A stretch of DNA of 42,530 nt from a bacterium (GTDB taxonomy: Bacteria; UBP6; JAFGXH01), in the NCBI GenBank assembly GCA_027064085.1, contig JAMOQH010000095.1:1-42530 (forward strand), read 5' to 3'. The translations under genes and the position numbers were made by a program. A model generated the notes under the pieces. That model made no database searches. It had not been told where the DNA came from and saw only the letters and a list, made by a program, of their open reading frames with translations. Below are positions 5,042 through 40,962 of this stretch, piece after piece. Positions within the stretch are counted from its first letter, which is position 1. Every line of letters begins with the position of its first letter.

Positions 5042-5065
5042 TTTTTAAACTAAAATCTTGAAAAA
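5042..5065 (+). repeat. CTAAAAT-loop intergenic hairpin, copy 1 (imperfect)
   Basis: TTTTTAAA - loop CTAAAAT - CTTGAAAAA, between thiD and the J-domain gene. The base pair closing the loop is an A-C mismatch; the next seven positions pair, including one T-G wobble. The loop is identical to the other members of the family in this window (about 11.4, 26.7, 32.5 and 40.9 kb). Confidence 0.5.
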
Positions 5066-5170
5066 CTTAAGAAAAAATGATATTAAATAATATATATGGG
5101 AATGTAACAAGTTATACTATAAATTATCTATAACAATAGTTGCATATTTAACTATTAATTAAGGCGTTTT

Positions 5171-6289
5171 ATGAATATTAGTATAAACAGTAAAAATCTA
5201 AATATAAATATTACAAAAGATGAAGTTTTCATACTAAATACAATTATTGATAAAATAGACTTTATTTCTTTAAAAAAGATTACTTCAAATAATTTTAAAG
5301 AAGAAGAACTAATTGATATATTAAAATCTCTATATGAAAAGAAAATTGTTCTCATTGATGACCCATCTTTACTAAAAATTGGTTCATTTAATAATAACAC
5401 TAGTGAAAGTTCTGTATATTTATATACTAATACTAATATTTCAGAACAAATAGAAAACATATATAAAAAAATACAAGAAGAAAAAAATTATTACGAAATA
5501 TTAGGAGTCTCCCCTAAATCATCACTAAAAGAGATAAAATTTATCTATTTTAAATTAAGTAGAAGATATCACCCTGATATAGTAAAAAAATACAATTTAC
5601 CTAGTGACATAAAAGAACAAGTTGATACAGTAATGCTTAAATTATCCAATATATTTAACATACTAAAAGTTGATTCTAAAAGAAAAGAATATGATAGAAC
5701 TTTAAATATATTTAAAAATAAACTAAAATCAATTAAACAGGCAAATCCACACAATAATAATATTGAAAAATCAAATGAATATACACTACTTGCAAGTAAT
5801 GAATACTATGGAGGAAAACTAGATAAGTCATTACAATTAATAAAACTAGCTCTATCATACAATCCTAATAGTAAAAAAGCACTAAAATTAAAAACAGATT
5901 TAGATATATTAATTAATAAAAATAAAATTTTAAATAACATAAAATCAATCAATGAATTAATAAGTGTGGGAGATTATTATGAAGCATTTGAACAAATTAA
6001 TGATTTAATTATTGAATATGGAGATGAAAAAAGGTTTTTATTAAAAAAAGTAGAGCTTTTAGATAAAATTAATTCTCATAAAAATAAAAATAAAATAATT
6101 AGTTTATTAAAAGACATATTAAGTAAAGATAAAAATGATATACAAACAAGAGAAATTTTAATAGAATATTTAAAAAAAGTAGATGAAAAAGTTCTATTGA
6201 AAGAACAATCAGAAGAATTGTTAAAAATAGATCCTAAAAATAAAACTGCTAAAAAATATATTAAGGGGAAATTATGGAATATGTTTTAG
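5171..6289 (+). CDS. J-domain co-chaperone with winged-helix-like N-terminus and TPR-like C-terminus
   Basis: J-domain proteins stimulate the ATPase of Hsp70 and deliver clients to it. The J-domain lies at about residues 107-177: YYEILGVSP start, the diagnostic HPD in RRYHPDIV, and KRKEYDR at its end. The ~95 residues before it (KKITSNNFKEEELIDILKSL) look like a small winged-helix module, a layout I recall from deltaproteobacterial J-proteins. After the J-domain, residues ~195-370 form helical TPR-like pairs (LDKSLQLIKLALSYNPNSKKA, LLKIDPKNKTAKKY). There is no zinc-finger or G/F region, so it is not canonical DnaJ. Its last 16 bases overlap the start of the Hsp70 gene, implying translational coupling and a dedicated chaperone pair. 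Confidence 0.85.
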   Translation: MNISINSKNLNINITKDEVFILNTIIDKIDFISLKKITSNNFKEEELIDILKSLYEKKIVLIDDPSLLKIGSFNNNTSESSVYLYTNTNISEQIENIYKKIQEEKNYYEILGVSPKSSLKEIKFIYFKLSRRYHPDIVKKYNLPSDIKEQVDTVMLKLSNIFNILKVDSKRKEYDRTLNIFKNKLKSIKQANPHNNNIEKSNEYTLLASNEYYGGKLDKSLQLIKLALSYNPNSKKALKLKTDLDILINKNKILNNIKSINELISVGDYYEAFEQINDLIIEYGDEKRFLLKKVELLDKINSHKNKNKIISLLKDILSKDKNDIQTREILIEYLKKVDEKVLLKEQSEELLKIDPKNKTAKKYIKGKLWNMF

Positions 6290-8070
6290 GAATTGATTTA
6301 GGTACAACAAATAGTTGTGTTTATTATTCTAAAGAAGATGGTAGTCTTGAATTAGTTCCTATTGATAATAAAAATTTATTACCTTCAGTTGTTTCATTCA
6401 GAGAGTCTAGTGTATTAGTTGGACACAATGCTTTAAACCAACTAATTATTAACCCTCAAAATACAATTTATGCATTTAAAAGATTAATTGGTAGAAGATG
6501 GGAAAGTAGTTTTTTACAAAATGCAGTTAAAAATTATTCATATAAAATAATAAAACACAATGAATCATCAGTTAGGGTTGAAGTTGATGATAAATTGTAC
6601 TCCATAGAAGAAATCTCTGCCCTTATTTTATCAAAAATCAGAGCTGAAGCATCTAAAAAATTAGGCGAAGATATAACAAAAGCAATTATTACAGTTCCAG
6701 CTTATTTTAATGAAAATCAAAGAAAAACAACCAAAGATGCAGGAAGCATTGCAGGACTAGATGTTATAAATATTATAAATGAACCTACTGCAGCAGCTCT
6801 TGCTTATGGATTTAAAGAAAATAAAAATCAACACCTACTTATATATGACTTAGGTGGTGGAACATTTGATGTAACCGTTTTAGATATAATGAATAATATT
6901 TTTGAAGTAATTGCAACAGTTGGTGATACTTTTTTAGGTGGAGAAGATTTTACTAATAAAATTGTCACATGGATAGAACAAGATATTATAGAAAAGTATG
7001 ATAATTCATTTAATCTTCAAAATGACCCTATAATTCACCAAAGAATTAAAAGTGCAGCAGAAATACTTAAAAAAGACTTATCAAAAAGAAGTTCTGGTAC
7101 AATAGAACTACCATTTTTATTTATAACCAAAGATAAAAAAACTATTAATTATTCACAAGAAATCACTTTGGAACTTTTTAATGAGTTAGTTGAACCTCTA
7201 GTTGATAAAACCATTGATTTAATAGAGCAAATGCTAGACTATACAAATTTATATATTGAAAATATTGATAAAGTAATATTAGTAGGAGGGCAAACTCGTT
7301 CTAGAATAGTTGTTGAAAAACTAGAAAATTTCTTTAGAAGAAAGATTTCTAAATCAATCAATCCAGATGAAGCAGTTGCTATTGGAGCAGCAATAAAGGG
7401 ACGCTTACTATTTAATAATGAAAATGATTCTCTCTTACTAGATGTTATTTCTCAGTCCATGGGAATTATGGTATCAGGTGGTTTTTATGAAAAAATTATA
7501 GATAGAGATTCGGTAATCCCATGTTCTGCAGTTAAAACATTTACAACAATAAAAGACAATCAAAAACAAGTAGATATAAATATTTTTCAAGGAGAATATT
7601 TATCTGCAACAGAAAATACATATTTAGGAACAATTAAAATTAAAGATATTCCCCCTATGGCACAAGGTGAATTTAAAGTAGATATAACATTTCTTGTTGA
7701 TACAGAAGGTATATTAACTGTAAAAGCAATAGATTTAAACTCTGATAAAACCTATGAGCTTGTTTTAGAAGGTGCATCAGGATTAACAGCCGAAGAATTA
7801 AAAAAACTTTCAGAAAATAAAAATCTTATTAATGGTTACGAAACCGGCAAAGAAGACTTATATATGTTATTAACTTCAATAAAAAAATTAATTCCACTCT
7901 CTCAGAAAAGATTAAAAGGAGACAAAGATAATTTACTTAAGTTAAATAACTACAAAAAATATATAGCTCTCATAGAAACTCAAAAATCATTTAATCAAGA
8001 TGAAGTATTAAGTTTTACTGAAAATTTAACAGCAATAGAAGCTGCATTAAAAGATATAGTGAATGGCTAA
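6274..8070 (+). CDS. Hsp70-family chaperone (DnaK-like, accessory)
   Basis: This is a cytoplasmic ATP-dependent chaperone of 598 residues. It has the standard Hsp70 signatures: VLGIDLGTTNSCV at the N-terminus, AIITVPAYFNENQRKTTKDAG, NIINEPTAAALAYG, LIYDLGGGTFDVTVLDI, and VILVGGQTRSRIV. A substrate-binding beta-domain follows (about 395-510, INIFQGEYLSATEN) and a shortened helical lid. The start ATG at 6274 follows AAGGGG and lies inside the end of the J-protein gene. The gene is not next to grpE or a canonical dnaJ, and its length is slightly below that of DnaK (about 640), so I read it as an accessory Hsp70 working with the overlapping J-protein. Its end overlaps the carboxypeptidase gene by 8 bases. 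Confidence 0.92.
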   Translation: MEYVLGIDLGTTNSCVYYSKEDGSLELVPIDNKNLLPSVVSFRESSVLVGHNALNQLIINPQNTIYAFKRLIGRRWESSFLQNAVKNYSYKIIKHNESSVRVEVDDKLYSIEEISALILSKIRAEASKKLGEDITKAIITVPAYFNENQRKTTKDAGSIAGLDVINIINEPTAAALAYGFKENKNQHLLIYDLGGGTFDVTVLDIMNNIFEVIATVGDTFLGGEDFTNKIVTWIEQDIIEKYDNSFNLQNDPIIHQRIKSAAEILKKDLSKRSSGTIELPFLFITKDKKTINYSQEITLELFNELVEPLVDKTIDLIEQMLDYTNLYIENIDKVILVGGQTRSRIVVEKLENFFRRKISKSINPDEAVAIGAAIKGRLLFNNENDSLLLDVISQSMGIMVSGGFYEKIIDRDSVIPCSAVKTFTTIKDNQKQVDINIFQGEYLSATENTYLGTIKIKDIPPMAQGEFKVDITFLVDTEGILTVKAIDLNSDKTYELVLEGASGLTAEELKKLSENKNLINGYETGKEDLYMLLTSIKKLIPLSQKRLKGDKDNLLKLNNYKKYIALIETQKSFNQDEVLSFTENLTAIEAALKDIVNG

Positions 8071-9829
8071 GTTTTTAGTAATATTCTTGCTTGTCACATC
8101 AATACATACATATTCAACTCCTATAGTATCAATAAAAGAAAATAAACTTAAATTTTTATCTCACTTTAATCCATATATTTATGGCAAAAGAAATAAAAAG
8201 ATTATTTTATTGGGTCAAAAAAAACTACTTAAATATTTAAAAAATAACGATATTAACTTTAAGATTCTTTATAAAAATGAAAACTTATATAAATTTAAAA
8301 AAAAATCAATTATCAGTAATGAAAATTTTATAAAATATAGTGAAGTCAGAGATAAAATAGAGCAACTAGTGACTAAATACCCTAGTACTATAGAAAAGAT
8401 TATTATAGGTAAATCTGTTGAAGGAAGAGATATCATTGGTATTAAAACAATAACTAATACTTTTGCTCCTAAATATAGAATTGTTGGTGGTATTCACGGA
8501 GATGAGGCAATGTCTTATCAATTCGTATATGATTTTATGATTGAATTAATTGAACACAATAAATATTATAAAAATATACTAGATAATACACAAATTTATA
8601 TTATTCCTATGTTGAATCCAGATGGAGCGGTAAATGTAACAAGAAGAAATGCCAATAATATTGATTTAAATAGAAATTTAGGATTCTTTTGGAAAGCCAT
8701 TATGTTTTCAGGTAGTAATTATTTCTCTGAACCTGAAACTAAAGCCCTAAGAGATTTTACATTAAAAGAAAACTTTAGCATGTCCTTTTCATTCCATACT
8801 TTTGGAAATATAATAAATTATGTATGGAATTTTTCACCTGATAAAGTTTCAGATACAAATGAAATTGTTAATATTAGCAATATATATAAAAATTTTACAG
8901 ATTATGAAGTAACAGAAGGTTATGATTGGTATCAAACAACAGGTGATTTAAATGATTACAGTTATGGAACAGCAGGAACTTTGGATTGGACTATTGAAAT
9001 TGATGATAGTGACCCCAATGGAGATATTTTTAAAAATAATAAAAACGCTATAATTGAAATCTTAAAAACAAGTAAGTTTGGAATAGAAGGAATCATTTCT
9101 GATACAAATAATAAACCATTAAACTCAACTATCATTATTGATGGTAAATCTATTTTTTATAACAATGACAATGGATATTTTTATAAGTATTTATTGAGTG
9201 GCTATCACCATATAAAAATTATTTCTCAAAATTATGAAGATTATGAAACTTTTTTTAAAGTTGATTTTGATAAACCATTTTTAAATATAAAACTTAATAA
9301 AAAAGAAACTAAAACTTATTTTACTGATAAAATCATATCAATAAAAGCAGATCTTGGGAAATATGGTTATAAAAATGTAGCACTACCTAATAATTTATTA
9401 TTTTTAGCAGATAATAGATATTTCTCACTCCCATTTGAAGGCGAAATTTTTATTAAAATACCAAATATAGATAAAGAAAAATATCTTGAAATAATAACTA
9501 AATATAATTTTGATACAAATTTAATAATTGAAGGATATGAAGATCTTGATAGTGATTATTTATTTACTCAAAAATATGAAAAACATTCAATTTTAATAAC
9601 TAAAAATATAAAATACATAAAAATAATACAAAGAAGCTCTAAAGATATCGCCCTAATAGATTCTGTTTTATTTAAAGACAAAGAAAATAATAATAATACA
9701 CTTTACTATAGTGGAAGCGGAGCATTATGTAGTTTTAATTCAGATTATGACTTTACTTTATTTGCCTTATCTCTTATTATATTAAGTGTGTATATATTCA
9801 AACGGAGAAAATATATTGAAAAAAGATAA
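8063..9829 (+). CDS. Exported M14 zinc carboxypeptidase with C-terminal anchor-like tail
   Basis: Predicted secreted metallocarboxypeptidase of 588 residues. A signal peptide (residues 1-18) and a short pro-region precede the M14 catalytic domain (about 93-340). Zinc ligands are visible as H145 and E148 in GGIHGDEAMS and H245 in FSFHTFGN; the substrate-binding DLNRN (201-205) and the catalytic Glu in LDWTIEI (E312) are also present. A carboxypeptidase-regulatory-like beta-sandwich follows (345-415), then an uncharacterised domain to about 545. The last 42 residues carry GSGALCS, a hydrophobic stretch and KRRK, like MYXO-CTERM or related sorting tails. It overlaps both the Hsp70 gene and the next hydrolase gene. 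Exact substrate is unknown. Confidence 0.85.
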   Translation: MAKFLVIFLLVTSIHTYSTPIVSIKENKLKFLSHFNPYIYGKRNKKIILLGQKKLLKYLKNNDINFKILYKNENLYKFKKKSIISNENFIKYSEVRDKIEQLVTKYPSTIEKIIIGKSVEGRDIIGIKTITNTFAPKYRIVGGIHGDEAMSYQFVYDFMIELIEHNKYYKNILDNTQIYIIPMLNPDGAVNVTRRNANNIDLNRNLGFFWKAIMFSGSNYFSEPETKALRDFTLKENFSMSFSFHTFGNIINYVWNFSPDKVSDTNEIVNISNIYKNFTDYEVTEGYDWYQTTGDLNDYSYGTAGTLDWTIEIDDSDPNGDIFKNNKNAIIEILKTSKFGIEGIISDTNNKPLNSTIIIDGKSIFYNNDNGYFYKYLLSGYHHIKIISQNYEDYETFFKVDFDKPFLNIKLNKKETKTYFTDKIISIKADLGKYGYKNVALPNNLLFLADNRYFSLPFEGEIFIKIPNIDKEKYLEIITKYNFDTNLIIEGYEDLDSDYLFTQKYEKHSILITKNIKYIKIIQRSSKDIALIDSVLFKDKENNNNTLYYSGSGALCSFNSDYDFTLFALSLIILSVYIFKRRKYIEKR

Positions 9830-11321: not shown

Positions 11322-11425
11322 TATTATTACCTCGTAAAATTAATTAATTTCAATCTTAATTAAAAGATTAGCTTACAAAATAGCAATTATTTATGAAAAA
11401 TCAAGTTATTTATATAATCAGGAGG

Positions 11426-11451
11426 ATTTTTAAGCTTAAAATCTTAAAAAT
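11426..11451 (+). repeat. CTAAAAT-loop intergenic hairpin, copy 2
   Basis: ATTTTTAAG - loop CTTAAAAT - CTTAAAAAT, a perfect 9-bp stem between the giant lipoprotein gene and folE2. Its loop has one extra T compared with the other copies. A second block, AACTAATTTACT at 11461-11472, is shared with the copy at 40.9 kb (41006-41017). Confidence 0.6.
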
Positions 11452-11492
11452 TGAAAAATCAACTAATTTACTTTGTAAATGGATTTAATTTT

Positions 11493-14400
11493 TTAGTAAT
11501 TGCAATCTTCATCGTGACATAATGACATATCATTACTGCTTCTAGGCATAATAACATAAGATGCATCATCAGATTTATCACCAGTTGTACAAATACCACC
11601 AGTGAGTTCATTAGTATTTTCACCATTTTCTAATGATAAACAAGTTTCAGCTCCATTACAATCAGTATTTTCGTTACAAGCGTCTTTACTTGCAGGAGAA
11701 TTGTGTTCATATTTTAATACACCAGATAAAGTTCTTAAGGTTGTTTCATAATAATGACATTTACCTGCTCCACTATCATGACCTCTCACCATAATATGTT
11801 GACAATTATTATCACTAGTACAGTCATATTCAGGCAATACAACAGGAGCACACTCACATATTTTACATAAAATAGGATTATAGTAATAAGCACAATTATC
11901 TTCATCATTCAGAAAATCATCACCGTCTATATCCGGGTCACATTTATCGCCAATGTTATCACCATCAAAATCTGATTGAACAGGATTAAATACATTTGGA
12001 CAATTATCAGAAACATCTTTTACACCATCCCAATCTTTATCACTAGTATAATCACATGCGTTACCCCAGTTTCCACTTCTTGGAGGAGGCATAGTTGCAT
12101 TATATAATTTTTTACTATCTACAACACAATCATCATTAATATCTAAATGATAACCACTATCACATGAACACTCTGCTACCCCCTGAATAACATTACAAAT
12201 ACTTTTATGACTTTCAGGACAAGTATTTGTTTCACATACTTCATCTATAATGCAACTATTTGCCACTCCATGGTAACCGCTATCACATGAACATTCTACT
12301 ATTCCTCCAACAATATTACAAACAGTTTTATGCTCTTCTGTGCAACTATCGTCTTCGCAAACTTCATCTATAACACATTCATTGTTTGCAAAATGGAAAC
12401 CAGTATTGCATTCATCACAGTTGGCACCACGATAGCCTTCATTGCAAGACCAATCACAACCAGTTATAGCATTCCAAGTACCGTCTTGATTTCTTGTAAT
12501 AGTTCCATCACCATCTCCATTTAAACTTGCATTTGCAGGAATACTAGAAACATCACATGGTTTATCATAAGCTTGATCTAAATTTTCAACAGTTGGACAA
12601 TTATCGTCTTCATTAACCCAACCGTCACCATCTAAATCATTATCACAAGCATCACCTTTATTATCATGATCCATGTCTTCCTGATTTGGATTATAATCTA
12701 ATATACAGTTATCAACACTATCTTTAACACCATCATTATCTTGGTCATCAGTAGCTTGACAAGTATCCCCCACACCATTTTTATCTGTATCCTCTTGTAT
12801 TAATTTAAACCCTCTTTTACAGTATTTATTACAAGAAGTCCATGATTCCTTATTACAAGCATTATTTATACATTGTCCAGTACCTTTATTTAAAGAATAA
12901 TCATTTGTTAATTCTTTATCAATATAGAACTCTTCATCATAAGAATCTTTTAGTGTAGTTCTAAAATTATTAGAAGAAGCTGCATTTTCTATTACAGTAT
13001 ATGGTTTATTATCAACAGCGTTTATCAATAATGATTCAAAACCTTCAGCTTTATTAGATTTATTTTTAAGTATTTGAGCAACTCTTATATCATAGTAATA
13101 AGGATCAAAAGGCTCTAGTTTTCTACAAACATTATCTTCCAGATTACAATATTCATCACTTTTACAAACACTGCAATATTTCTCTTCATCTCCACTTCCA
13201 CAAGGATAATGAGAATTTTCTTCATCACAATAAACATTCATTCTATGAAAATAATCTTTTAAACTAATCGCCCTTGACATCCCGTAGTGATTTATGTATT
13301 CAACTGAAGTTATTATTTCATCGCCAGGTTTATAATCCTTATAGCTTTCATATTCGTCTTTACGAATAATTACATATATTCCTCTATATAAATAGGTACT
13401 TAAAGGACATAAGTCAATATTACTATCTGAATTTTGTTCACAACTTATAACTTCTCCATCATTATTATAAGTACAATTACAACCTCTAAAATAACCACCA
13501 TCAACTTTGGGTGTTTGGGCATACAAATAAAACCCCAAACTTTTATTTATAGTATCATTATAAACGGCTAAAATTCTACCAGTAATACTATCTTTATATT
13601 TAGATGTTTTTATAGTGGTTTTATTATACCCATGAAACTCTCTTATTTTATTAACTTCAGCTTGAACACAGTGCCCAGAAGCTTCTCCATCTTTTATTTC
13701 ACATAAAGTAGAACCAGTTGCAGAATCTTCTATATTGGCAAAACAATCACTACTTCTATAACATGTTTTATATTCACAAACATGAGTTGTATTATTACAT
13801 TGTTTATCATAACTACAATCTGTATTTTGATTACAAGTACCATACACTAAAGAGCAACCAGACTCTAAACAAACTTCCCAAGGATTACAATTACCACATG
13901 AATTAGAAAAGTTTTCACATTGATGAGAAACAGAACTACATAAAGAATATGCACCACAGTAATCATCTAAACTACAGTTAAAATTTGTTTCATCTGCAAT
14001 ACACATTCCATCCTTACAAATTTCCCAAGGTTGACATTCTACAAAACATTCATATTCATTTTTAACACAATCATGAAGCGAGGTATCACAAACTCTATCA
14101 TCAGGACAATCACCATTATTATTACAAGCATTTGTATCTAAAACACATTTCCAATTAGGGTCACAATGTTCCCAGTTATCACAGTCATCATCATCTTGAC
14201 ATGGTTTAGCAATTTCTTCTGATATACAATCATGAGTTTCAGGGTCGCAAGTCATATTTCTTGGACAATCAGCTTTTACATTACATTTATCACTCATAAG
14301 CTCACAAGAATTAGTTTCAACAGAACAAACTTCCCAAGAATCACATTCTGGAGTACAGCTGGAATTAACTTCAACACAGTTATGAGTATTTAAATCACAA

Positions 14401-17400
14401 GAAATTGAAGTTGTTTCATCAGTTGAGTTGCAACCATAATTTTCATATGGATTTTCACCTATATAAACCTGATCAGAACACCGTCCATCAGCTAACAAAC
14501 ATTTTTTGGCTTGATGAATGTGGTTATCATTTTCATCATAATATGAGTAAACTTTACATTCTTCCCATTCATTACAAGGAGAATCACAGGCAAGCTTACA
14601 AGTATGAGTTTCTGTACTGCATTTTTTGCCACTTTCACAATTCAAATCACTCTCACATAATCCCTCAGTTAGTACACATTGACCATCATTACATTCTTGG
14701 TAATCAGCACATATAGGATTACATATTCTTTCACAACTATGCTCGGAATTACAAACTTGATTTTCTAAACAATCAGTAGTATTTCCACATCTGTTATCAT
14801 CATTAACACACTCTCCTCTATCGTTACAGGATTCCCATGATTCACATACAGGATTACAAACAGCTACACATTCATGAGATAAAGGGTCACATGTTTTTAC
14901 TCCATCACAATCAGAACTTGAATCACAATGATCTTCTTTAGGAATACAGACATGACTACTTGAACAGTATTGCCATACTAAGCAATCATCATTATCAAAA
15001 CATCCATTTGGCTGATCATTTACACAATTATGATTTTCATTACATCTTTCATTATTGTTACATTGAGAATTATTCTCACAAAAGCCAGCATTTAGCTGAC
15101 ATTGCTCTGCTACACATCGTTCCCAGTCTTTACAATCTGGATTACAAACACTTCCATTTGGATTAGATTTACATGAATGACTACTTACATCACAATATTT
15201 ATTGGACGGACAATCTCCTCCATCATTACAACGATTAGAATTAACTAAACAATTATTACCACTACATATTTCCCATGCTTGGCAACTAACATTACAATTA
15301 TTACTTTCGCATAGGTGACTTATTGCATCACAACTTTCATTATTTTCACAATCATTATCATCGATACATCTATCATCTCTTGATTGACAATTATTACTAG
15401 AACATATTTCCCAAGGATTGCAAATAGGATTGCAACCCGATGGGTCTGGATCTTGACATTCTTTATTTTTACAAACTTGCCCTCCACGACAATCACTTAC
15501 ATTAGTACAAGTTCCTTCTATATTTTTACAAATATCACCTTCTGCACAATATTCCCATGATTTACAATCAGGAATGCAACTGTTTGATGGTTCTAATTTA
15601 CAAGTATGACTCAATCTTGAACAATATTTACCATCTCCACAATCATTATTCCTTAAACATCTTCCATTAGCTAATTCACATTGGTTAGTAATATTACATA
15701 CTTCCCATGGTTTACAAAAAGGATCACACGAATCTGAAGGATCCTCTTCACATGTATGAGTATCTAAATTACATGTAGCACTATATCCATAAGTTGTTCC
15801 ACAATCTTCACTTCCATCACAATACTCTATTTCTCCACAAGTATGATTTCTAGCATCACAAAATAATCCAGTTGCGCAATCAGAACTATCAGAACACCTA
15901 TCTTCATTACTTGAGCAAGTTCCATCATTATTACAAGTTTCCCAATCTTTACAAGAGGGAGTACAATTAGTATATTCACATAAATGACTTACTGAATTAC
16001 ACATTTTTCCATCTATACAATCATTATTTGAATCACATCTACCTGTTCTTACTTTACAATTGTTATTTGAACATACTTCCCAAGGATCACACAAAGGACT
16101 ACATCCATTCGGGTCAGGCTCTTGGCATTCGTTATTATTGCAAACATCAGTTCCTGAACATTCACTAGTAGTAGAACAAGTTCCTTCTATTTTTTTACAA
16201 ATATTACCCTCTGCACAATACTCTAAATCACTACAAGCAGGAGCACAATCATTTGAAGGTTCATCCTTACAAGTATGAGTTAGCCTTGAACAATATTTAC
16301 CATTTCCACATTCTGCATTAGTAGAACATCTTCCGTCAGCCAATTCACATTGATTATTTATATTACACTCTTCATAAGGTTTACAAAATGGATCGCAATC
16401 ACTTGATGGATCTTCTTTACAAACATGAGTAGTTAAATCACATGTGGCACTAAATCCGTATGTTGTTCCACAATCATCATCAGCATCACAAAAACCATCA
16501 TTTACAGAACACTCTCCATTATCTTCACAAGTTCCCCAAGTATCACAATTTTCTGTACAATTATTTTCACATTTATGAGAACTTAAATCACATTTTTTAC
16601 CATTTTTACAAGTTGAATCACTAGTGCAATAATCATCATTATTTAAAATACAAGTTTTTCCATCAGGAGAACATTCCTCCCAATATTCACATTCTACTTC
16701 ACATTCAGTTTCACATTTATGAGTCGCAAAATCACAAACAGAATCACCTAAGCAATCTTCAACTAAATTACAAGACCCCTGTGCTAGTTTACATCGACCA
16801 TCTTCACAGTATTCCCATGAATTACAATCATTATCTGTTTCACAAGCAGTATTATTTAGAGGTACACATTTATGTTCGGAATTACACTTTTCACCATTTG
16901 CACAATCAATATTTTCTGAACAATAGCCAACAGCAGCAACACAGTTATCATGTCTATCACATGTTTGCCATAATTCGCATATTGGAGCACAAACACCAGG
17001 GTCCTTCTTACAAGTATGAGTATCGGGGTTACAAGTAAAACTAGTCGCTGTATTTCTTTCACAGCCTACTTTAGGATCACACCTTCCACTTGCAGTCACA
17101 CAGGTTCCATCTTCATCACATGTTTGCCAGCCTTCACATTTAGGATTACAATTATCATATTCACATTTATGTTTATTATTACAAACTTGACCACTTTTGC
17201 AATCTGTAGCATCATTACAAAAATATCTGTCCTTGTCTGCCTTACAAACTTTATCTTCTGTACATATTTCCCATGAATTACACTCAGGTTGACAATTATA
17301 TGTACATTTATGAGTTCTTGAGTCACATATAGGCTTATCTTCTCCACAATCGTTATAAGTATTACAATATTCTTCTAGGGCAACACATTTATTGTTTAAA

Positions 17401-17678
17401 TCACATCGCTCCCATGATTCACAACCAGGATTACAACTTCCTAAACACCAATTTGTTTTCGTATCACAAGCCTGAGGATATTCACAATCTTGTTGAGCTT
17501 CACATCGACCTTCTTTAGGTAAACAACTTGATGTAACTTCCCCATAATCATCTTCAACAGAATTACATTGTTCCCAATCTTTACATTTTGGCTCACAATT
17601 TCCTATAGGTGTAACCGTATTACATGATTGAAAGTACAACAAGAAAAGCAGTATAAATGAAAAAAATAATTTCGCCAT
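11493..17678 (-). CDS. Giant cysteine-rich repeat lipoprotein (2061 residues)
   Basis: Predicted surface lipoprotein. The signal peptide ends LLYFQSC with the lipid cysteine at residue 19 (a relaxed lipobox). Residues ~27-1290 consist of about 25 units of ~50 residues, each of the form C.P.C..WE.C.....C....GRC....DC....CD..TH.C. A domain at ~1340-1465 (TGRILAVYN, LGFYLYAQTP, GIYVIIRK, YKPGDEI) looks like an OB-fold insertion. Then come two blocks of thrombospondin-3-like calcium repeats (about 1635-1700 and 1873-1920; DQDNDGVKDSVDNC, DIDGDDFLNDEDNC) around EGF-like domains (1739-1860; CSCDSGYHG). The C-terminus is cysteine-rich with no anchor. The start is preceded by GGGGG. Cysteine spacing implies extensive disulphides, so export to an oxidising place. 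An adhesin or coat role is only a guess. Confidence 0.85.
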   Translation of the reverse strand: MAKLFFSFILLFLLYFQSCNTVTPIGNCEPKCKDWEQCNSVEDDYGEVTSSCLPKEGRCEAQQDCEYPQACDTKTNWCLGSCNPGCESWERCDLNNKCVALEEYCNTYNDCGEDKPICDSRTHKCTYNCQPECNSWEICTEDKVCKADKDRYFCNDATDCKSGQVCNNKHKCEYDNCNPKCEGWQTCDEDGTCVTASGRCDPKVGCERNTATSFTCNPDTHTCKKDPGVCAPICELWQTCDRHDNCVAAVGYCSENIDCANGEKCNSEHKCVPLNNTACETDNDCNSWEYCEDGRCKLAQGSCNLVEDCLGDSVCDFATHKCETECEVECEYWEECSPDGKTCILNNDDYCTSDSTCKNGKKCDLSSHKCENNCTENCDTWGTCEDNGECSVNDGFCDADDDCGTTYGFSATCDLTTHVCKEDPSSDCDPFCKPYEECNINNQCELADGRCSTNAECGNGKYCSRLTHTCKDEPSNDCAPACSDLEYCAEGNICKKIEGTCSTTSECSGTDVCNNNECQEPDPNGCSPLCDPWEVCSNNNCKVRTGRCDSNNDCIDGKMCNSVSHLCEYTNCTPSCKDWETCNNDGTCSSNEDRCSDSSDCATGLFCDARNHTCGEIEYCDGSEDCGTTYGYSATCNLDTHTCEEDPSDSCDPFCKPWEVCNITNQCELANGRCLRNNDCGDGKYCSRLSHTCKLEPSNSCIPDCKSWEYCAEGDICKNIEGTCTNVSDCRGGQVCKNKECQDPDPSGCNPICNPWEICSSNNCQSRDDRCIDDNDCENNESCDAISHLCESNNCNVSCQAWEICSGNNCLVNSNRCNDGGDCPSNKYCDVSSHSCKSNPNGSVCNPDCKDWERCVAEQCQLNAGFCENNSQCNNNERCNENHNCVNDQPNGCFDNDDCLVWQYCSSSHVCIPKEDHCDSSSDCDGVKTCDPLSHECVAVCNPVCESWESCNDRGECVNDDNRCGNTTDCLENQVCNSEHSCERICNPICADYQECNDGQCVLTEGLCESDLNCESGKKCSTETHTCKLACDSPCNEWEECKVYSYYDENDNHIHQAKKCLLADGRCSDQVYIGENPYENYGCNSTDETTSISCDLNTHNCVEVNSSCTPECDSWEVCSVETNSCELMSDKCNVKADCPRNMTCDPETHDCISEEIAKPCQDDDDCDNWEHCDPNWKCVLDTNACNNNGDCPDDRVCDTSLHDCVKNEYECFVECQPWEICKDGMCIADETNFNCSLDDYCGAYSLCSSVSHQCENFSNSCGNCNPWEVCLESGCSLVYGTCNQNTDCSYDKQCNNTTHVCEYKTCYRSSDCFANIEDSATGSTLCEIKDGEASGHCVQAEVNKIREFHGYNKTTIKTSKYKDSITGRILAVYNDTINKSLGFYLYAQTPKVDGGYFRGCNCTYNNDGEVISCEQNSDSNIDLCPLSTYLYRGIYVIIRKDEYESYKDYKPGDEIITSVEYINHYGMSRAISLKDYFHRMNVYCDEENSHYPCGSGDEEKYCSVCKSDEYCNLEDNVCRKLEPFDPYYYDIRVAQILKNKSNKAEGFESLLINAVDNKPYTVIENAASSNNFRTTLKDSYDEEFYIDKELTNDYSLNKGTGQCINNACNKESWTSCNKYCKRGFKLIQEDTDKNGVGDTCQATDDQDNDGVKDSVDNCILDYNPNQEDMDHDNKGDACDNDLDGDGWVNEDDNCPTVENLDQAYDKPCDVSSIPANASLNGDGDGTITRNQDGTWNAITGCDWSCNEGYRGANCDECNTGFHFANNECVIDEVCEDDSCTEEHKTVCNIVGGIVECSCDSGYHGVANSCIIDEVCETNTCPESHKSICNVIQGVAECSCDSGYHLDINDDCVVDSKKLYNATMPPPRSGNWGNACDYTSDKDWDGVKDVSDNCPNVFNPVQSDFDGDNIGDKCDPDIDGDDFLNDEDNCAYYYNPILCKICECAPVVLPEYDCTSDNNCQHIMVRGHDSGAGKCHYYETTLRTLSGVLKYEHNSPASKDACNENTDCNGAETCLSLENGENTNELTGGICTTGDKSDDASYVIMPRSSNDMSLCHDEDCNY
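15250..16480 (-). repeat. 669-bp internal duplication in the giant lipoprotein gene
   Basis: Two consecutive stretches, about 15250-15810 and 15920-16480, encode the same four-unit order with high similarity. Both start with CGTTYG(F/Y)SATC and continue through CELA(D/N)GRC, YCSRL(T/S)HTCK, (C/I)...EYCAEG(N/D)ICK, and DP(N/S)GC(S/N)P. The matching points 15781 and 16450 are 669 bases (223 codons) apart, so the array grew by a segmental, in-frame, multi-unit duplication and not only by single-unit steps. Confidence 0.75.
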
Positions 17679-26671: not shown

Positions 26672-26696
26672 AATTTTGAGATTTTAGCTCAAAATT
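26672..26696 (-). repeat. CTAAAAT-loop intergenic hairpin, copy 3 (inverted orientation)
   Basis: AATTTTGAG - ATTTTAG - CTCAAAATT on the + strand, so on the - strand the loop reads CTAAAAT. The stem is a perfect 9 bp and differs in sequence from the other copies. The left arm is also used by a competing hairpin, AAAATTG - AGCGA - CAATTTT at 26659-26677. Confidence 0.6.
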
Positions 26697-26768
26697 CAAT
26701 AAAAAATAAATTTTACTATCATAAAATTATATTTTTAATTTTTATTTATACTTCTAAGTAAATATTAT

Positions 26769-31041: not shown

Positions 31042-31187
31042 AAATAATTCTCAGTTTAATTCTTAATAAAATATTAAATTAATAAAATCTAATACTGTTA
31101 TACTAGTATTATCATTATGTTACAACAATATCCCTATTCAAATTTTATCAAGATTTAATATTTTTACTAAATAATAAAAATTACTAC

Positions 31188-31215: not shown

Positions 31216-31248
31216 AAGTGTGTTGTGTAAAACTAAAGGAGGTTAAAC

Positions 31249-31971: not shown

Positions 31972-32011
31972 CTACTAAAAACTTATTTTTAAGTTATTGT
32001 ATTATAAAAAA

Positions 32012-32052
32012 GGGGTATTTCAGTTATTGATGTAATTGATACCCTTTTTTTA
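32012..32052 (+). terminator. Rho-independent terminator after the peroxiredoxin gene
   Basis: GGGTAT (32013-32018) pairs with ATACCC (32039-32044), with further pairing inside (TCAGTTA with TAATTGA), followed by a run of seven T. It separates the peroxiredoxin gene from the Fur-family gene that starts ~20 bases later. Confidence 0.8.
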
Positions 32053-32071
32053 TTATTTTATGAAGGAAAAT

Positions 32072-32473
32072 ATGGATAAATTAACTTCAACGTCTATGCA
32101 AGAGCTACTAAAAGCTCAAGGCTTAAAGGCTACCCCACAAAGATTAGCTATACTCAAAGAAATAGCTAAAGAAGGACATATCTCCGTTGATAACATTTAT
32201 TTAAAAATAAAAAATAATTTTCCATCAATATCCCTTGCAACAATATATAAAAATATTAAGTCGATGAAAGATGCTGAAATCATTTATGAAATAAATACCC
32301 AAGATTCAAAGCCAAAGTATGAAATAAAGAAAAAAACTCATGCTCATTTTATATGTCAACTATGTAACTCTGTAGAAGATATGGAAATAAACAAAGATGA
32401 CTTCAAAAATTATGGTGATATTAATGAAATTGATTTGTATCTATATGGTATTTGTAAAAAGTGTAAGATTTAA
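32072..32473 (+). CDS. Fur-family regulator, PerR-like
   Basis: A 133-residue metal-dependent repressor. The DNA-binding domain shows LKATPQRLAILKEIAKEGHISVDNIY and the recognition helix region SISLATIYKNIKSM. The dimerisation domain has HAHFICQLC and CKKC, the two CxxC pairs of the structural zinc site. Position next to the peroxiredoxin gene suggests a peroxide-responsive PerR rather than an iron-responsive Fur, though the sequence alone does not settle this. ATG 32072 follows AAGGA with 5-base spacing; ATGs at 32060 and 32036 are possible but the latter lies within the upstream terminator hairpin. A hairpin with CAAGC/GCTTG arms and a short T-run follows the stop. Confidence 0.85.
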   Translation: MDKLTSTSMQELLKAQGLKATPQRLAILKEIAKEGHISVDNIYLKIKNNFPSISLATIYKNIKSMKDAEIIYEINTQDSKPKYEIKKKTHAHFICQLCNSVEDMEINKDDFKNYGDINEIDLYLYGICKKCKI

Positions 32474-32496
32474 TTACTCTTTATGGCTTGTTTCAA

Positions 32497-32514
32497 CCAA
32501 GCAAAGCTTGTTTT
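32497..32514 (+). terminator. Probable terminator of the Fur-family gene
   Basis: CAAGC - AAA - GCTTG followed by TTTT, 25 bases after the stop codon. A competing stem uses the preceding GCTTG (32486-32490). The stem is short, so termination may be weak. Confidence 0.45.
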
Positions 32515-32520
32515 CCACAA

Positions 32521-32545
32521 AAATTAAAGCTAAAATCTTTAATTT
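32521..32545 (+). repeat. CTAAAAT-loop intergenic hairpin, copy 4
   Basis: AAATTAAAG - loop CTAAAAT - CTTTAATTT, a perfect 9-bp stem between the Fur-family gene and nagZ. The loop matches copies at 5.0, 26.7 and 40.9 kb exactly; the outer stem is different but complementary. Confidence 0.6.
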
Positions 32546-32667
32546 GAAAATATAAAAATAAAAAATAAATATTGATTATAATTCGTTAAATTCATATACT
32601 TACTTATAGGTTACAAAGTTGTATCTATACTGCAACTATCAATTATAGAATAATCTGTAGGAGAAAA

Positions 32668-33902: not shown

Positions 33903-33911
33903 TTTATCCCC

Positions 33912-35060: not shown

Positions 35061-35062
35061 AT

Positions 35063-36637
35063 CTATACCTCCTCTTCATGGCTATCTGGACCAAGTTTTA
35101 TCTGTTTGAGCATCATTTTTAATTCAGCAAAACCAAGTATCACAAATAATGTCAAAAAGATAAAGAATGTTGCTTTAACATTAGTTAAATGTATTGGAGT
35201 TGCTGATTTACTTGTAGGAAGTACCCCAAATACTGTCCAAGGTTGACGACCAACCTCTGCCATGGTCCAACCAGTTACTATTCCTATATAAGATAACCAA
35301 AGAGTAATAGATGAAATCTTTAAAAATAATTTATTTTCTAATATTTGATTCTTCCTAACTTTAACATACATAAATAAGAAAAATAACATAAAAAATGAAC
35401 CTATTCCAACCATAATATGGAATGAATAAAAAACAGTACTTATAGGAGGGATAATATCCTTTTCATTTTTTAAGTGTCCATAACCAAAATATTTTGAATG
35501 TTTTTCAAATATATCTTTTTGTTTTTTCATTTCACTAGTATTTTTAATTTTTTTAGCAGCATGGTATGCATACATAGCATCTATTGCAACTTTACCTCTT
35601 TTCATTAGTTCTTTTGCTGGTAAAATACCATATTTTTTGTTACCATATACTAAATCATTTATGCCTGGAATAAAAGCATTTAAGGAATGCTTACCTAGTA
35701 AAGATAGACCTTTTGGAAATGGTATTCCAAAAACTGCTGTTTTATCATTATCTCCAATTTTTATACTTGGATTTAACATTCCCATAACAATTGGAGCACC
35801 TTCTTCTCCCTTAAATAAACCCTCTGCTGCAGCCATTTTGGTAGGTTGCATATTTGTTACAGTTGCTGCCTGCATATCCCCAACTAAAAACAGAAAATAA
35901 GCATTCAATAGAGCAAATGTAATACCTACAGCAATAGATCTTTTTGCAAATGTAATATGCCTTTTCCTTAAAAGATAATAAGCAGAAATTGTAATCATAA
36001 AAGTAGCACTAAGCATATAAGCTGATGACATTTGATGCAAAAATGTATCAATTGCCTTAGGTTGAAGAGCAATTCTTGAAAAATCTACCATTTCGGCTCT
36101 TGCTGTTTCAATATTTAACTTATAACCAGATGGGTGTTGCATAAAAGAATTAGCTACAATAATCCAAAGTCCAGAAAGGTTAGTTCCTATTGCAAACATC
36201 CAAGTTGAAAATAAATGAAATCTCTTACCAACTCTTTTCCAACCAAATAATGAAACAACACCAAAAGAGGCTTCCATAAAGAATGCAAAAATCCCTTCAA
36301 TAGCTAAAGGAGCACCAAAAACATCTCCCATAACCCATGAGTAATTAGACCAATTTGTTCCAAATTCAAATTCATGAATAATACCTGTTGCAATACCAAT
36401 TGCAACATTAATAGCTAATAGTTTTTGCCAAAACTTAGTTGTGGCTTTCCACTCTTTTTTACCTGTTTTATAATACATTGTTTGCATTATCGCAACAAGA
36501 ACAGACATACCTAATGTAATAGGCACAAATAAAAAGTGAAAAATAATTGTCATTGCAAATTGTGCTCTTGCCCAATTTACCACGCCACTTACATTGGCTA
36601 CTGCATCAGTAGCAACAGTAGCAAGAAAATGTTCCAT
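35063..36637 (-). CDS. cydA: Cytochrome bd ubiquinol oxidase subunit I
   Basis: Catalytic, haem-carrying subunit of cytochrome bd (524 residues, normal length). Visible landmarks are the haem-ligand His34 in RAQFAMTIIFHFLFVP, IHEFEFGTNWSNYSWVMGDVFG with the conserved acidic residues, the second haem His in DTFLHQMSSAYML, the Met-bearing helix SFHIMVGIGSFFML, and the quinol-site signature GRQPWTVFGVLPT. About nine membrane helices are predicted. AGGAGG precedes the ATG. Gene order is DUF4492-like small protein, cydA, cydB, 78-residue membrane protein. Such oxidases support growth under low oxygen and protect against peroxide and nitric oxide, consistent with nearby peroxiredoxins. Confidence 0.95.
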   Translation of the reverse strand: MEHFLATVATDAVANVSGVVNWARAQFAMTIIFHFLFVPITLGMSVLVAIMQTMYYKTGKKEWKATTKFWQKLLAINVAIGIATGIIHEFEFGTNWSNYSWVMGDVFGAPLAIEGIFAFFMEASFGVVSLFGWKRVGKRFHLFSTWMFAIGTNLSGLWIIVANSFMQHPSGYKLNIETARAEMVDFSRIALQPKAIDTFLHQMSSAYMLSATFMITISAYYLLRKRHITFAKRSIAVGITFALLNAYFLFLVGDMQAATVTNMQPTKMAAAEGLFKGEEGAPIVMGMLNPSIKIGDNDKTAVFGIPFPKGLSLLGKHSLNAFIPGINDLVYGNKKYGILPAKELMKRGKVAIDAMYAYHAAKKIKNTSEMKKQKDIFEKHSKYFGYGHLKNEKDIIPPISTVFYSFHIMVGIGSFFMLFFLFMYVKVRKNQILENKLFLKISSITLWLSYIGIVTGWTMAEVGRQPWTVFGVLPTSKSATPIHLTNVKATFFIFLTLFVILGFAELKMMLKQIKLGPDSHEEEV

Positions 36638-36678
36638 AAAAACCTCCTGAAAAATATATAAAACTATATGAATAACTC

Positions 36679-36900
36679 TTAATGTTTACTATTCGGTTTA
36701 TTGGTACTTTTTATTGAATTATTTGTTAACTGTTTAATCATGAAATCTTTTTGGGAATCTTCTGTCTTAAAATTATTTTTGAAAAAATTTGGAAAAAAAA
36801 TAGGTTTTATAACTGCAACTAAAAAAATAATTTTTAATGATGCGATTAAAAACAATTTTTGCCACATAGTCATTTTTTGCTTTTTTTTAAATAATTTCAT
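36679..36900 (-). CDS. Small DUF4492-like membrane protein upstream of cydA
   Basis: A 73-residue protein with a basic N-terminus and one membrane helix: MTMWQKLFLIASLKIIFLVA followed by VIKPIFFPNFF. The combination of the tryptophan, Lys-in-helix and the FFFPNF motif matches DUF4492, a family I recall as encoded next to cytochrome bd genes in Bacteroidota and Campylobacterota. The C-terminus is polar and asparagine-rich. AAGGA precedes the ATG; 41 bases separate it from cydA on the same strand. It probably assists assembly or stability of the oxidase. Confidence 0.65.
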   Translation of the reverse strand: MKLFKKKQKMTMWQKLFLIASLKIIFLVAVIKPIFFPNFFKNNFKTEDSQKDFMIKQLTNNSIKSTNKPNSKH

Positions 36901-36909
36901 TATATTCCT

Positions 36910-38985
36910 TTATTTTCCAAACATCTTTTCAAGAAAATCACTTTTTTTACCTAATTCATAAGCTTTGTAAAAACAATCATTTGCTTTAGTCTCATCTTTA
37001 TACACATCTTTATATAGTAAACCTAAACTATAGTATGGGTCCGCATAATTTACATCAATAGATATTGCCATATTATACGAAGAAATAGCATCATCATAAT
37101 TATTCAAATAAAGGTCTTCCAGATACCCTTTGTAATACCATGCAGGTGCATAATTATCCCTTAACTTAATATATTCATTAAATAATCGGTAAGAATCTTC
37201 ATATTTTTTTTCTATCATATTAATATAAGCATAATTATAAACAACACCTTTATGATTTGGATTTAATTCATATCCTTTTTTATAATATTTTATTGCTAAA
37301 GAAATATTTTTTTTGAATGTTTCATATAAAAACCCTGCATTATTATATGCATCTGTATAATTAGGATTAAACTTTAAAGACTTTTCATAGAATTCTAAAG
37401 CGGTTCCATAATCTTTTAAGTGTTTTTCTGTTAAATACCCTACATTAAATGCATAAATATAACTAGTTGGAGATGCTTCATAAGCTTTTTTGTAATACTC
37501 AAGAGCTTTATCAAGGTTTCCTTTATGTATTTCATATAATAATCCAGCACTATTGTATGCTTCTGAATAATTAGGACTTAATTCTATTGCTTTTTCATAA
37601 TACTCAAGAGCTTTTTCTTTATCATCAAAGTACTTCTCTAAACAATAAGCCATATTATAGTAACCTGTTGAATAATTAGGATTAATTTCTACTGAATGCT
37701 GATAAAAGTTATAAGCTTTATCATAATCCTTAAAAATTACTTCATATAAGAACCCTAAATCAACATAAGTGTAATGTGAATTAGGGTCTAAAGCTAATGA
37801 TTTTTTATAATAATCTTCAGCAATTTCATATCTATTAGGAGCATCCATTTTATAATGGTACACATAAGCAATATTATACAAAGGCTTTGCAAAATCAGGA
37901 GATAATTCAACAGCTTTTTTATAATATTCAATAGCCTTATTAAAATCAGAATACAAGCCTTCAGAGATTAATCCCATATTATTTAAAGAATTTATATGAT
38001 TTGGATTTATATCTAATATTTTATTGTATAGTTCTTCTGCTGTATGTAAATCATTTTTCTTAAAATGAAAAAGATATGCTTTTTTATATAAAACTTCTAT
38101 ATTATCTGGAGAAATTAAAAGAGCCTGATTATAATAATATTCTGCATTCTCATAATCATTATATGTAACTTCATATAGACTTCCTAAATTTTCATAACTA
38201 TAATGATAATTTGGATTTAACTCTATGCTTTTTAATAAATACTCTTTTGCTTTTTCTTGATTATTTAATTTATATTGATATAAATATGAAGCATTATAAA
38301 TAGATAAAAAGTATTTATCATTTTCTTGAATAGATCTTTCATAATACTCAATTGCACTATTAATATCTTTTTTATGTGTTTCATAAAGATAGCCTAAACG
38401 ATTTAATGTAGAATAATCATTTGGCTTTACAATTAATGATTTATTATAGTAATCGAATGCTTTATCAAATTCTTTTAATTTAAATTGTAAAAAATAAGCA
38501 TAGTTATGTAATGCTTTAAAGTATTTTGAATTAATTTTAATTGATTTTAAGTAATAATATTCAGCTTTTTCGTAATCCCTTATATCTTCTTCATATATCA
38601 GAGCACATTTTTCATAAGTATCATAATCATTATCTTCATTATTCATTTTTAGTGCTTTTTCATAATATTCTAGTGCTTCTAAATGATTTTTAAAATAAAA
38701 GTCAGTTATATATCCTAAGTTTTTATATAATTCAACATCAACATCATAAGGATTAGAATCAATAAACTTTTTAGATTGATTTAATGCTTTATTTGCATAT
38801 CTTTCTTGTTGTTCATAATCACCAAGAATTCCATATATCTTATACAGGCCATATAAAGCATAAGGAGAATTCTCATAAGCAGCTAAAGATTTTTCAAAAA
38901 AATCTTTAGCTGCATTGTCATTTTCTTTTATAAACTCCTCTCTACCTAAAAAATATAATCTTTTAGACTCACTTAAATCATACAT
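36910..38985 (-). CDS. Large TPR protein (about 17 repeats)
   Basis: A 691-residue cytoplasmic protein composed almost wholly of TPR motifs at ~34-38 residue spacing, such as ALEYYEKALKMNNEDNDY, AIEYYKKAVELSPDFAKPLY, and ALEYYKKAYEASPTSYIYAF. Many repeats carry an insertion (…LYEVTYNDYENAEYYYNQAL) typical of long tyrosine-rich TPR arrays. There is no signal peptide, membrane helix or catalytic domain. It ends 9 bases before the DUF4492-like gene and so may be cotranscribed with the cytochrome bd genes. Its likely role is a protein-protein scaffold; the partner is unknown. Confidence 0.8.
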   Translation of the reverse strand: MYDLSESKRLYFLGREEFIKENDNAAKDFFEKSLAAYENSPYALYGLYKIYGILGDYEQQERYANKALNQSKKFIDSNPYDVDVELYKNLGYITDFYFKNHLEALEYYEKALKMNNEDNDYDTYEKCALIYEEDIRDYEKAEYYYLKSIKINSKYFKALHNYAYFLQFKLKEFDKAFDYYNKSLIVKPNDYSTLNRLGYLYETHKKDINSAIEYYERSIQENDKYFLSIYNASYLYQYKLNNQEKAKEYLLKSIELNPNYHYSYENLGSLYEVTYNDYENAEYYYNQALLISPDNIEVLYKKAYLFHFKKNDLHTAEELYNKILDINPNHINSLNNMGLISEGLYSDFNKAIEYYKKAVELSPDFAKPLYNIAYVYHYKMDAPNRYEIAEDYYKKSLALDPNSHYTYVDLGFLYEVIFKDYDKAYNFYQHSVEINPNYSTGYYNMAYCLEKYFDDKEKALEYYEKAIELSPNYSEAYNSAGLLYEIHKGNLDKALEYYKKAYEASPTSYIYAFNVGYLTEKHLKDYGTALEFYEKSLKFNPNYTDAYNNAGFLYETFKKNISLAIKYYKKGYELNPNHKGVVYNYAYINMIEKKYEDSYRLFNEYIKLRDNYAPAWYYKGYLEDLYLNNYDDAISSYNMAISIDVNYADPYYSLGLLYKDVYKDETKANDCFYKAYELGKKSDFLEKMFGK

Positions 38986-39051
38986 TAAAACCTCTTATAA
39001 AAATTAACTGTACTTGTTTTAACATTAATTATATTAAAATTGCAAAATTTA

Positions 39052-39525
39052 TTAAATTATTTCCGTTTTAATGTATTCCAATACCTTTTCAACATGTTCT
39101 TTTACCCTAACCTTTTTATAAACTTTCCTTAAGATACCATCTTTATCAATAATAAAAGTTGTTCTTACTATTCCATAATATTCTCTTCCGTAATTCTTTT
39201 TTAACTGCCACACATTTAACAATTCAGAAAGCAGATGCTCTTCATCTGTTAAAATAGGAAAATTTAGTTCATATTTAGATGAAAATTTAACATGTGACTT
39301 TAAATTATCTGGGCTAATTCCTATGATAACCGTGTTTAAGTTTTCAAAAAATTCAATTCTATCCCTAAAATCACAAGCTTCATTAGTACAGCCGGGAGTA
39401 TTATCTTTAGGATAAAAATATAATACAATATTTTTCCCTTTAAAATCAGAAAGCTTTACAAGTTTATCATCCTGACTTTTTAATTCAAAATCAGGAAATG
39501 CTTTATTTATCTCAGGATACTCCAT
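39052..39525 (-). CDS. bcp: Bcp/PrxQ-type peroxiredoxin
   Basis: Thioredoxin-dependent thiol peroxidase of 157 residues. The peroxidatic and resolving cysteines are five residues apart in DNTPGCTNEACDFRD, the atypical two-Cys arrangement of Bcp. Other family segments are AFPDFELKSQDDKLVKLSDFKGK, IVLYFYPKD, VIIGISPDNLKSHVKF, and VRTTFIIDKDGILRKVY. Length is normal and all active-site residues are present, in contrast with the peroxiredoxin at 31.2 kb. It is probably cytoplasmic. The ATG is preceded by AGGAGAG. Confidence 0.92.
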   Translation of the reverse strand: MEYPEINKAFPDFELKSQDDKLVKLSDFKGKNIVLYFYPKDNTPGCTNEACDFRDRIEFFENLNTVIIGISPDNLKSHVKFSSKYELNFPILTDEEHLLSELLNVWQLKKNYGREYYGIVRTTFIIDKDGILRKVYKKVRVKEHVEKVLEYIKTEII

Positions 39526-39687
39526 TTACTCTCCTAAATACAAAAGTTCCTTAGGGTATTCGCAAATAATTTTCCAAGTAAACAAACTAGTTAAAACCAT
39601 TATTACAACTAAATATCGTTGTTAAAACTATAAATTGTTATTATCTTTCATTATTAGATTATCTTAAGATTAGTATAATTATTTACT

Positions 39688-40854
39688 TTACCATTCTTCG
39701 TCTTCTTCATCTTCTTCGTCTTCAAATTCTGGCTCGTCATTAAATGCATCACTCGCTTCATCATATTCGGCAGAATCTTCATTATCATAACGAGATTCGT
39801 TGTCATACTCATCAGCATCAGCATTATCCATATCTGCATCATAATTAGCATCAGCAGCTTCATTTCTATATCTTTCCCTATCATCAACATCATCTAGAAT
39901 TTCATCATTCATTCTGTCAACTTCATCCAAATCTTGCATTGCTTCTTGCTCGTATTGGTCAGCATACTCGTCATAACCATCAGCATACATTCTATTAGTA
40001 TAATGACGACCATATTGGTTATAGTAATCTCTTTCATTTCTAAAATAAATTCCATCATACCAAAAAGGTCCCATATCGAAAATATCATCATTATAGTAGA
40101 TATCATATCTTCCGACTCTTCTTCTACTTCTCACTGGAACACCACCGCCTCTTACTGCTTTACCTTTTACGACAACAAAAATTATAATTGCCAAAATTAT
40201 CAAGAATACAATTATTGCCCCAGTTGTAGAGCCTCCGCCTGAGTGCCTTACTCTATTACCAGCTCTACTGTTTCTTCTATTTTTTGCCATATTAGCTTTA
40301 GTTTGAGCAACTTTAAGCTTTCTATCAGCTACTTTATGCTTATCTTTAATTGCTTCTGATTTTGCATTAGCTTTTGCTGTCGCTTTTTTAGCTTTAGCTT
40401 GATTTCTTTTTGCATCAATTCTTTTTGTATCAGCTTTTCTTGCATTAGCTTTAGCCGAATTTTTTAATTCACTTTGAGCGGCACCTTTTACTTCCTCAAA
40501 CTGCGATTTAAACTTTTCATAAATCTTCTTTTTCTTTTTACCCGTTAATTTTTTAGTTCTTAAAGATTTAGGTGGCCACAAAAAATCCCACTTTGATTTA
40601 CTTTTATTATTTTTAGTTATTCTTAGAGCTTCTTTCCATGCTTCAGCAGCTTTGATATTATCCCCTTTTTCATAATATGCCTTACCAAGCAGATAGTAAG
40701 CTTCAGCTGTTTTTCCTGACTTATCTTTAAGTTTACTAATCACACCAGCATAATCTTTCTTAATAGTAAGTTTCCATTCATCTGTCATTCGTCCGGCATA
40801 TACATTACTAGAAAAGACGAATACCATACTAATTACAAGTAACAAATACTTCAT
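39688..40854 (-). CDS. Charge-polarised membrane protein: TPR, Lys/Ala-rich coil, membrane helix, acidic tail
   Basis: A 388-residue protein of unknown function. A signal peptide ends VYA (residue 20). Residues ~48-82 form one TPR-like hairpin. Residues ~100-200 are strongly basic, with Lys/Ala/Arg repeats (AKKATAKANAKSEAIKD) likely forming a long helix. A GGGST linker leads to one membrane helix (212-229, IIVFLIILAIIIFVVV), followed by RSRRR. The last ~140 residues are rich in Tyr, Asn, Asp and Glu (DIYYNDDIFD, YDEYADQYEQEA) and end in an acidic run, EDEEDEEDEEW. If the signal is cleaved, the basic part is periplasmic and the acidic tail cytoplasmic. Nothing identifies a partner. Confidence 0.65.
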   Translation of the reverse strand: MKYLLLVISMVFVFSSNVYAGRMTDEWKLTIKKDYAGVISKLKDKSGKTAEAYYLLGKAYYEKGDNIKAAEAWKEALRITKNNKSKSKWDFLWPPKSLRTKKLTGKKKKKIYEKFKSQFEEVKGAAQSELKNSAKANARKADTKRIDAKRNQAKAKKATAKANAKSEAIKDKHKVADRKLKVAQTKANMAKNRRNSRAGNRVRHSGGGSTTGAIIVFLIILAIIIFVVVKGKAVRGGGVPVRSRRRVGRYDIYYNDDIFDMGPFWYDGIYFRNERDYYNQYGRHYTNRMYADGYDEYADQYEQEAMQDLDEVDRMNDEILDDVDDRERYRNEAADANYDADMDNADADEYDNESRYDNEDSAEYDEASDAFNDEPEFEDEEDEEDEEW

Positions 40855-40939
40855 TATTCCTCCAAAATATAAAAATCATATAATTAAAAAATTAACATAA
40901 TTTAAAGCTAAAAAGCAAGGTTTTATTAGATATTTACTA

Positions 40940-40962
40940 TTTTTAAGCTAAAATCTTAAAAA
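40940..40962 (+). repeat. CTAAAAT-loop intergenic hairpin, copy 5
   Basis: TTTTTAAG - loop CTAAAAT - CTTAAAAA, a perfect 8-bp stem in the divergent region between the charge-polarised membrane protein and xseA. Because both neighbours point away from it, it cannot be an ordinary terminator for either. Confidence 0.6.

Follow-up and report, generated by a model that had tools for sequence, protein, structure and literature searches.

Intergenic CTAAAAT hairpins of a UBP6 bacterium belong to a dispersed family of two-hairpin, probably REP-like elements

What are the small hairpins with similar loops and dissimilar stems that recur between the genes of this bacterium? The window, which is the whole 42,530-nt stretch of DNA analysed here, contains five of them, and a preliminary description presented these as intergenic hairpins with a constant 7-base loop, CTAAAAT, and stems that differ yet stay complementary. 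All five are present, and each is indeed intergenic, flanked by large ORFs. The shared 7-base loop breaks at 11426, where it has 8 nt, and the arms are perfect over 8-9 bp in four of the five, whereas those at 5042 are imperfect and bulged (TTTTTAAA/CTTGAAAAA).

When the genomic matches are viewed in context, the CTAAAAT hairpin, hereafter P3, usually has another hairpin in front of it. The hairpin first taken for the whole element is therefore real but forms its second half; the larger hairpin directly upstream, which most genome copies carry, had been overlooked. The unit measures 58 nt and consists of P1 (4 bp), TTCAAC, P2 (4-6 bp), TTTT[A/C]C and P1', followed with zero spacer by P3 (about 9 AT-rich bp). 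In the first hairpin, TTCAAC/TTTT[A/C]C thus forms a 6x6 internal loop and the P2 tip is variable; G stands directly 5' of P1 in 49 of 70 copies. Four copies folded singly as RNA all gave exactly P1-P2-P3 as the minimum-energy fold; with DNA folding parameters, P1 becomes marginal in some copies, that of the window among them. Pairing of TTTT with the CTAAAAT loop as a pseudoknot, which the seed would allow, was rejected as it shows no covariation and the loop letters vary elsewhere. Covariance models were built from 7 copies (R1) and from 73 (R2), and the features of the window are as follows.

32488 to 32545, plus strand: complete bipartite element, 75-80 bits in cmsearch, folding exactly to P1-P2-P3 as RNA
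32488 to 32520, plus strand: first hairpin of that element, with P1 at 32488-32491/32517-32520, TTCAAC at 32492-32497, P2 at 32498-32502/32506-32510 and TTTTCC at 32511-32516
32521 to 32545, plus strand: P3 of that element, with arms at 32521-32529/32537-32545 and CTAAAAT at 32530-32536
40940 to 40962, plus strand: P3-type hairpin TTTTTAAG-CTAAAAT-CTTAAAAA, the first of a three-hairpin array
40965 to 41037, plus strand: divergent bipartite copy within that array, scoring 26.9 bits with R2 (E 0.006 for the window) and made up of hairpin TTCAAACACTAAAACTAGTGTTTTCA and then an AT-rich P3 at 40999-41037 with a C/T mismatch
26672 to 26696, minus strand: P3 hairpin AATTTTGAG-CTAAAAT-CTCAAAATT (R2 36 bits, mainly from P3; fold as single-stranded DNA, z -3.4)
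11426 to 11451, plus strand: P3 hairpin ATTTTTAAG-CTTAAAAT-CTTAAAAAT, first half not recognised
5042 to 5065, plus strand: imperfect P3 TTTTTAAACTAAAATCTTGAAAAA (R1 16 bits, from the P3 part only)

The window accordingly holds one complete copy (32488-32545), which starts 14 nt past the stop of the ORF at 32036-32473, a divergent one within a small array (40940-41037) and P3-type hairpins at three other sites. The array has a folding energy of -17.6 kcal/mol as single-stranded DNA (z -5.6). Close to the P3 at 26672-26696, a plain AT hairpin (26709-26728) may represent the decayed first half of that copy. Another plain hairpin (5016-5032, AGTGATATTTTGTCACT) precedes the P3 at 5042-5065, which we regard as a decayed or doubtful member because its fold is no better than those of shuffled sequences. 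The largest ORF of the window (2061 aa) occupies 11493-17678.

Genome-wide, the core AAGCTAAAATCTT occurs 52 times with at most one mismatch, against 26 for the reversed control, and 11 times exactly, against about one predicted from base composition. A count of CTAAAAT hairpins with arms of 7 bp or longer gave three in 442 kb (the window together with 20 stretches of 20 kb chosen beforehand), all of them intergenic and located in the window, and 10 trials of Markov-shuffled intergenic DNA yielded none. R1 gave 103 matches in the genome at E up to 10 and R2 gave 110 at E<=0.05, counts that rest on covariance-model searches and selected stretches; the 20 chosen stretches, which come from large contigs, contained five clear copies, below the genome-average prediction. 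Outside this genome R2 returned no copies, whether in 27 further genomes from the phylum, two of which belong to the same family, or in 385 relatives searched at E 1e-4 with stricter filters. The family thus comprises about 110 copies and is genome-specific among the genomes searched. A scan of viral contigs for one P2 subtype found none. Rfam gave nothing at gathering score in the window, and at seven element loci it matched just an adjacent tRNA and, off the element, gave two chance hits below threshold. A simple detector of C.T hairpins was set aside as evidence, being unspecific in bulk (34 per 400 kb vs 15-32 in shuffled DNA).

Selection on structure, as the preliminary description suspected, is strongly supported: the covariation score is 0.823 against 0.190 for shuffled copies and at most 0.20 for slid controls (72 copies), and cells with double changes number 417 against 120. 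Pairing holds in 97.1% of the 1259 cells from 72 distinct copies, and double changes occur at 17 of the 18 pairs, in an alignment (A3) that was fitted to the R1 structure and so favours pairing; in the seven-sequence seed, aligned without structure, pairing is 100% and 14 of 18 helix pairs covary. What had been taken as constant is in fact mostly variable, since of CTAAAAT just the opening C and the closing T are fixed across the 72 copies. These two end bases of the P3 'loop' form a conserved C.T mismatch in 60 of the copies (T.T in 9), and the first hairpin has three more, C.T in 70, T.C in 66 and C.T in 58. The bases that never turn paired are the conserved ones. The stems, in turn, are nearly free: P1 takes about 30 different sequences, the three helices vary in stem sequence independently of one another (Mantel r -0.03 to 0.07), and 71 stem combinations across hairpins are distinct in the 72 copies. 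Wobble pairs are scarce, with 6 G.T and 9 A.C in about 1255-1259 cells, whereas tRNAs of the same genome, a small sample, show about 5% G.T and no A.C. The near-absence of G.T favours structure at the DNA level.

Most copies lie just downstream of genes. Forty-four of 64 intergenic copies come after a same-strand gene, and 34 of these 44 begin within 22 nt of its stop, the typical gap between stop codon and element being 0-22 nt. Among 58 classified copies, 37 are in unidirectional, 16 in convergent and 5 in divergent gene contexts, +/+ copies outnumber -/- copies by 26 to 10, and about one third of the copies are antisense or next to a divergent gene start. REPs, too, are high-copy intergenic palindromes found chiefly at unidirectional and convergent sites (PMC3733652), a pattern to which the element conforms. 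One pair of copies (L049 and L054) is 94% identical through 63 nt between flanks that are 25-40% alike, and therefore the unit seems to move or be copied whole. Other pairs have a common first hairpin and differing second hairpins, and other module types (GTAAC...TTTC; TTCA...CACTTGAA) substitute for one hairpin or the other, which makes the family a BIME-like mosaic of modules. We observed no empty site, target duplication or activity for element copies.

The genome holds Y1 transposases of several kinds. Four genes resemble REP-associated tyrosine transposases (RAYTs): NF047646 is the best NCBIfam model for their proteins, at 55-77 bits and under its cut-off of 80, and they have the HUH and tyrosine motifs MP[ND]H[IV]H and WHxxxY. 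Modules of the element family lie within about 130 nt of all four.

RAYT C185: element 98 nt upstream, second copy past a neighbouring gene
RAYT C192: element 62 nt upstream, inverted pair of modules downstream
RAYT C182:61521: inverted M1-like plus GTAAT...TTTC pair downstream
RAYT C182:24615: M1-like, M4 and P3-type hairpins upstream, GTAG REP downstream

Strong model matches adjoin two of the four genes, against a chance expectation of about 7% of genes; the corresponding p is ~0.02 under strict counting and ~0.002 with a weaker hit counted, for an association that is post hoc, covers four genes and was read partly by eye. RAYT genes with inverted REPs on both sides are the rule (PMC2817692). 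Here, clear close inverted copies on both sides occur only at C192. Canonical GTAG REPs are also present in the genome, one of them beside a RAYT, and the RAYTs may therefore serve those instead; elsewhere in the phylum, RAYTs are surrounded by GTAG REPs (L173, L174). Some RAYT proteins (L168:2064-2744, L169:1570-2496, L170:1498-2247) carry low-complexity tandem repeats, reading DKLDKL... and NALPYPVIN..., between the HUH and tyrosine motifs. Another Y1 transposase gene (L139, G000:C32) sits inside an apparent restriction-modification locus with an HsdS-like neighbour and has its own GGGGTTGCAACCCC-type repeats.

The closest known systems are REPs with RAYT (TnpA-REP) Y1 transposases, including GTAG-tagged REPs, BIMEs and REPINs (PMC2817692, PMC3733652, PMC3116915, PMC8266576). 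They resemble our element in having some 100 intergenic palindromic copies that mostly follow genes, units that look like dimers, copies next to RAYT genes, a stem mismatch or bulge, and complementary changes. However, the element lacks a GTAG or CGTC tag on the 5' side of the hairpin (its bottom strand reads GTAA in about 44 and GGAA in about 24 of 72 copies in the internal loop), and it differs in its two dissimilar hairpins per unit, its conserved C.T mismatches, its AT-only P3 and stems that vary almost freely inside one genome. Because the GTAG tag is absent we do not file the units as classical REPs; with that tag lacking and just one RAYT gene clearly flanked on both sides, we call them REP-like. 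Non-autonomous IS200/IS605 (PATE-like) elements similarly have two hairpins with an unpaired T, as read by Y1 transposases, but conserved cleavage or guide motifs were not identified in our element and we found no autonomous IS with these ends.

GTAG-type REPs also occur within the elements themselves. GC-rich hairpins tagged GTAG, GTAA or GTAC sit exactly in the apical loops (P2 tips) at L059, L069, L075, L086, L101, L114 and L111, with the tag apparently always on the bottom strand in the copies read. REPs within palindromes have a precedent (PMC3733652), and the pattern suggests that the hairpin tips are REP landing sites. Hairpins tagged GTAA or GTAG, such as GTAAGGACGAGGCGTTGACTCGTCC, some of them close together, were seen at L016, L002 and L049 and represent a second REP family in the genome.

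The main rival is a role at the RNA level, in which the top-strand transcript would fold as P1-P2-P3 in the 3'-UTR and be protein-bound, or protect or process mRNA 3' ends. The position close behind same-strand stops, the excess of +/+ copies and a conserved structure that folds as RNA all speak for it, but we consider it unlikely in view of G.T pairs no commoner than A.C, the third of copies that are antisense or after a divergent gene start, and the lack of an Rfam match, on which a known RNA family was dropped. Immobile palindromes that terminate transcription or organise the chromosome by binding gyrase or an HU-like protein, alike through shared function, would also fit the location after genes and the A-tract-like P3 arms (AnTm in 48 of 72 vs 24 expected). 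Their probability is low: no T-run follows P3, for which the terminator reading was dropped, and neither the conserved mismatch pattern nor a near-identical pair in unrelated flanks is expected of terminators.

Slightly less credible still are sites of another enzyme of folded single strands, integron-attC-like or an IS200/IS605-like hairpin pair, whose cassettes or autonomous element have been lost. As in attC, structure and conserved unpaired bases outweigh stem sequence, the P2 tips are long and variable, and the left end abuts stop codons. Yet the attC reading was dropped for want of the R-box, as the conserved RYYYAAC/GTTRRRY outer boxes are missing and P1 covaries freely; the copies are scattered rather than arrayed, and of three tyrosine recombinases (Phage_integrase) two are read as XerC/XerD and one is solitary, none being established as IntI. 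Passive palindromes that quasi-palindrome correction keeps perfect in AT-rich DNA could yield almost pure Watson-Crick stems with many double changes. This already disfavoured reading is highly improbable, as the same mismatches are left uncorrected in 80-97% of copies and the relatives searched have none.

We consider it probable that the elements are REP/BIME-like, RAYT-associated palindromic repeats whose folded single strands are recognised through their shape and mismatches. Such an unusual, shape-read element is most likely because it adjoins genes for REP-type single-strand DNA transposases. Among the options of the preliminary description, a small mobile or REP-like element is best supported, by the dispersed pair, the conserved mismatches and the RAYT-adjacent modules; no evidence was found for an uptake-type signal. 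The units would act as folded single-stranded DNA hairpins, which the RAYT-type Y1 (HUH) transposases of the host would recognise by shape and unpaired bases, so that stem sequence would be free to drift while paired. They would be dispersed or maintained as non-autonomous repeats, intergenic and mostly just past stop codons. We infer all three central parts, namely that the functional form is DNA and not RNA, that a RAYT is the recognising protein, and that the units transpose. The TnpA-REP of E. coli needs its mismatch unpaired but not the sequence of that mismatch (PMC8266576).

More tentatively, the identity of the element may lie solely in the mismatch pattern of two coaxial hairpins with free and unlinked stems, one class of protein reading some 110 unrelated sequences as one element whose tips are landing sites for nested GTAG REPs. 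Repeats that are conserved in structure alone escape sequence-based repeat finders. For the question whether REP transposases take sequence or unpaired shape as their cue in hairpins, about 70 natural variants with drifting stems and fixed mismatches, together with several RAYT genes in the same genome, constitute a ready-made mutational scan.
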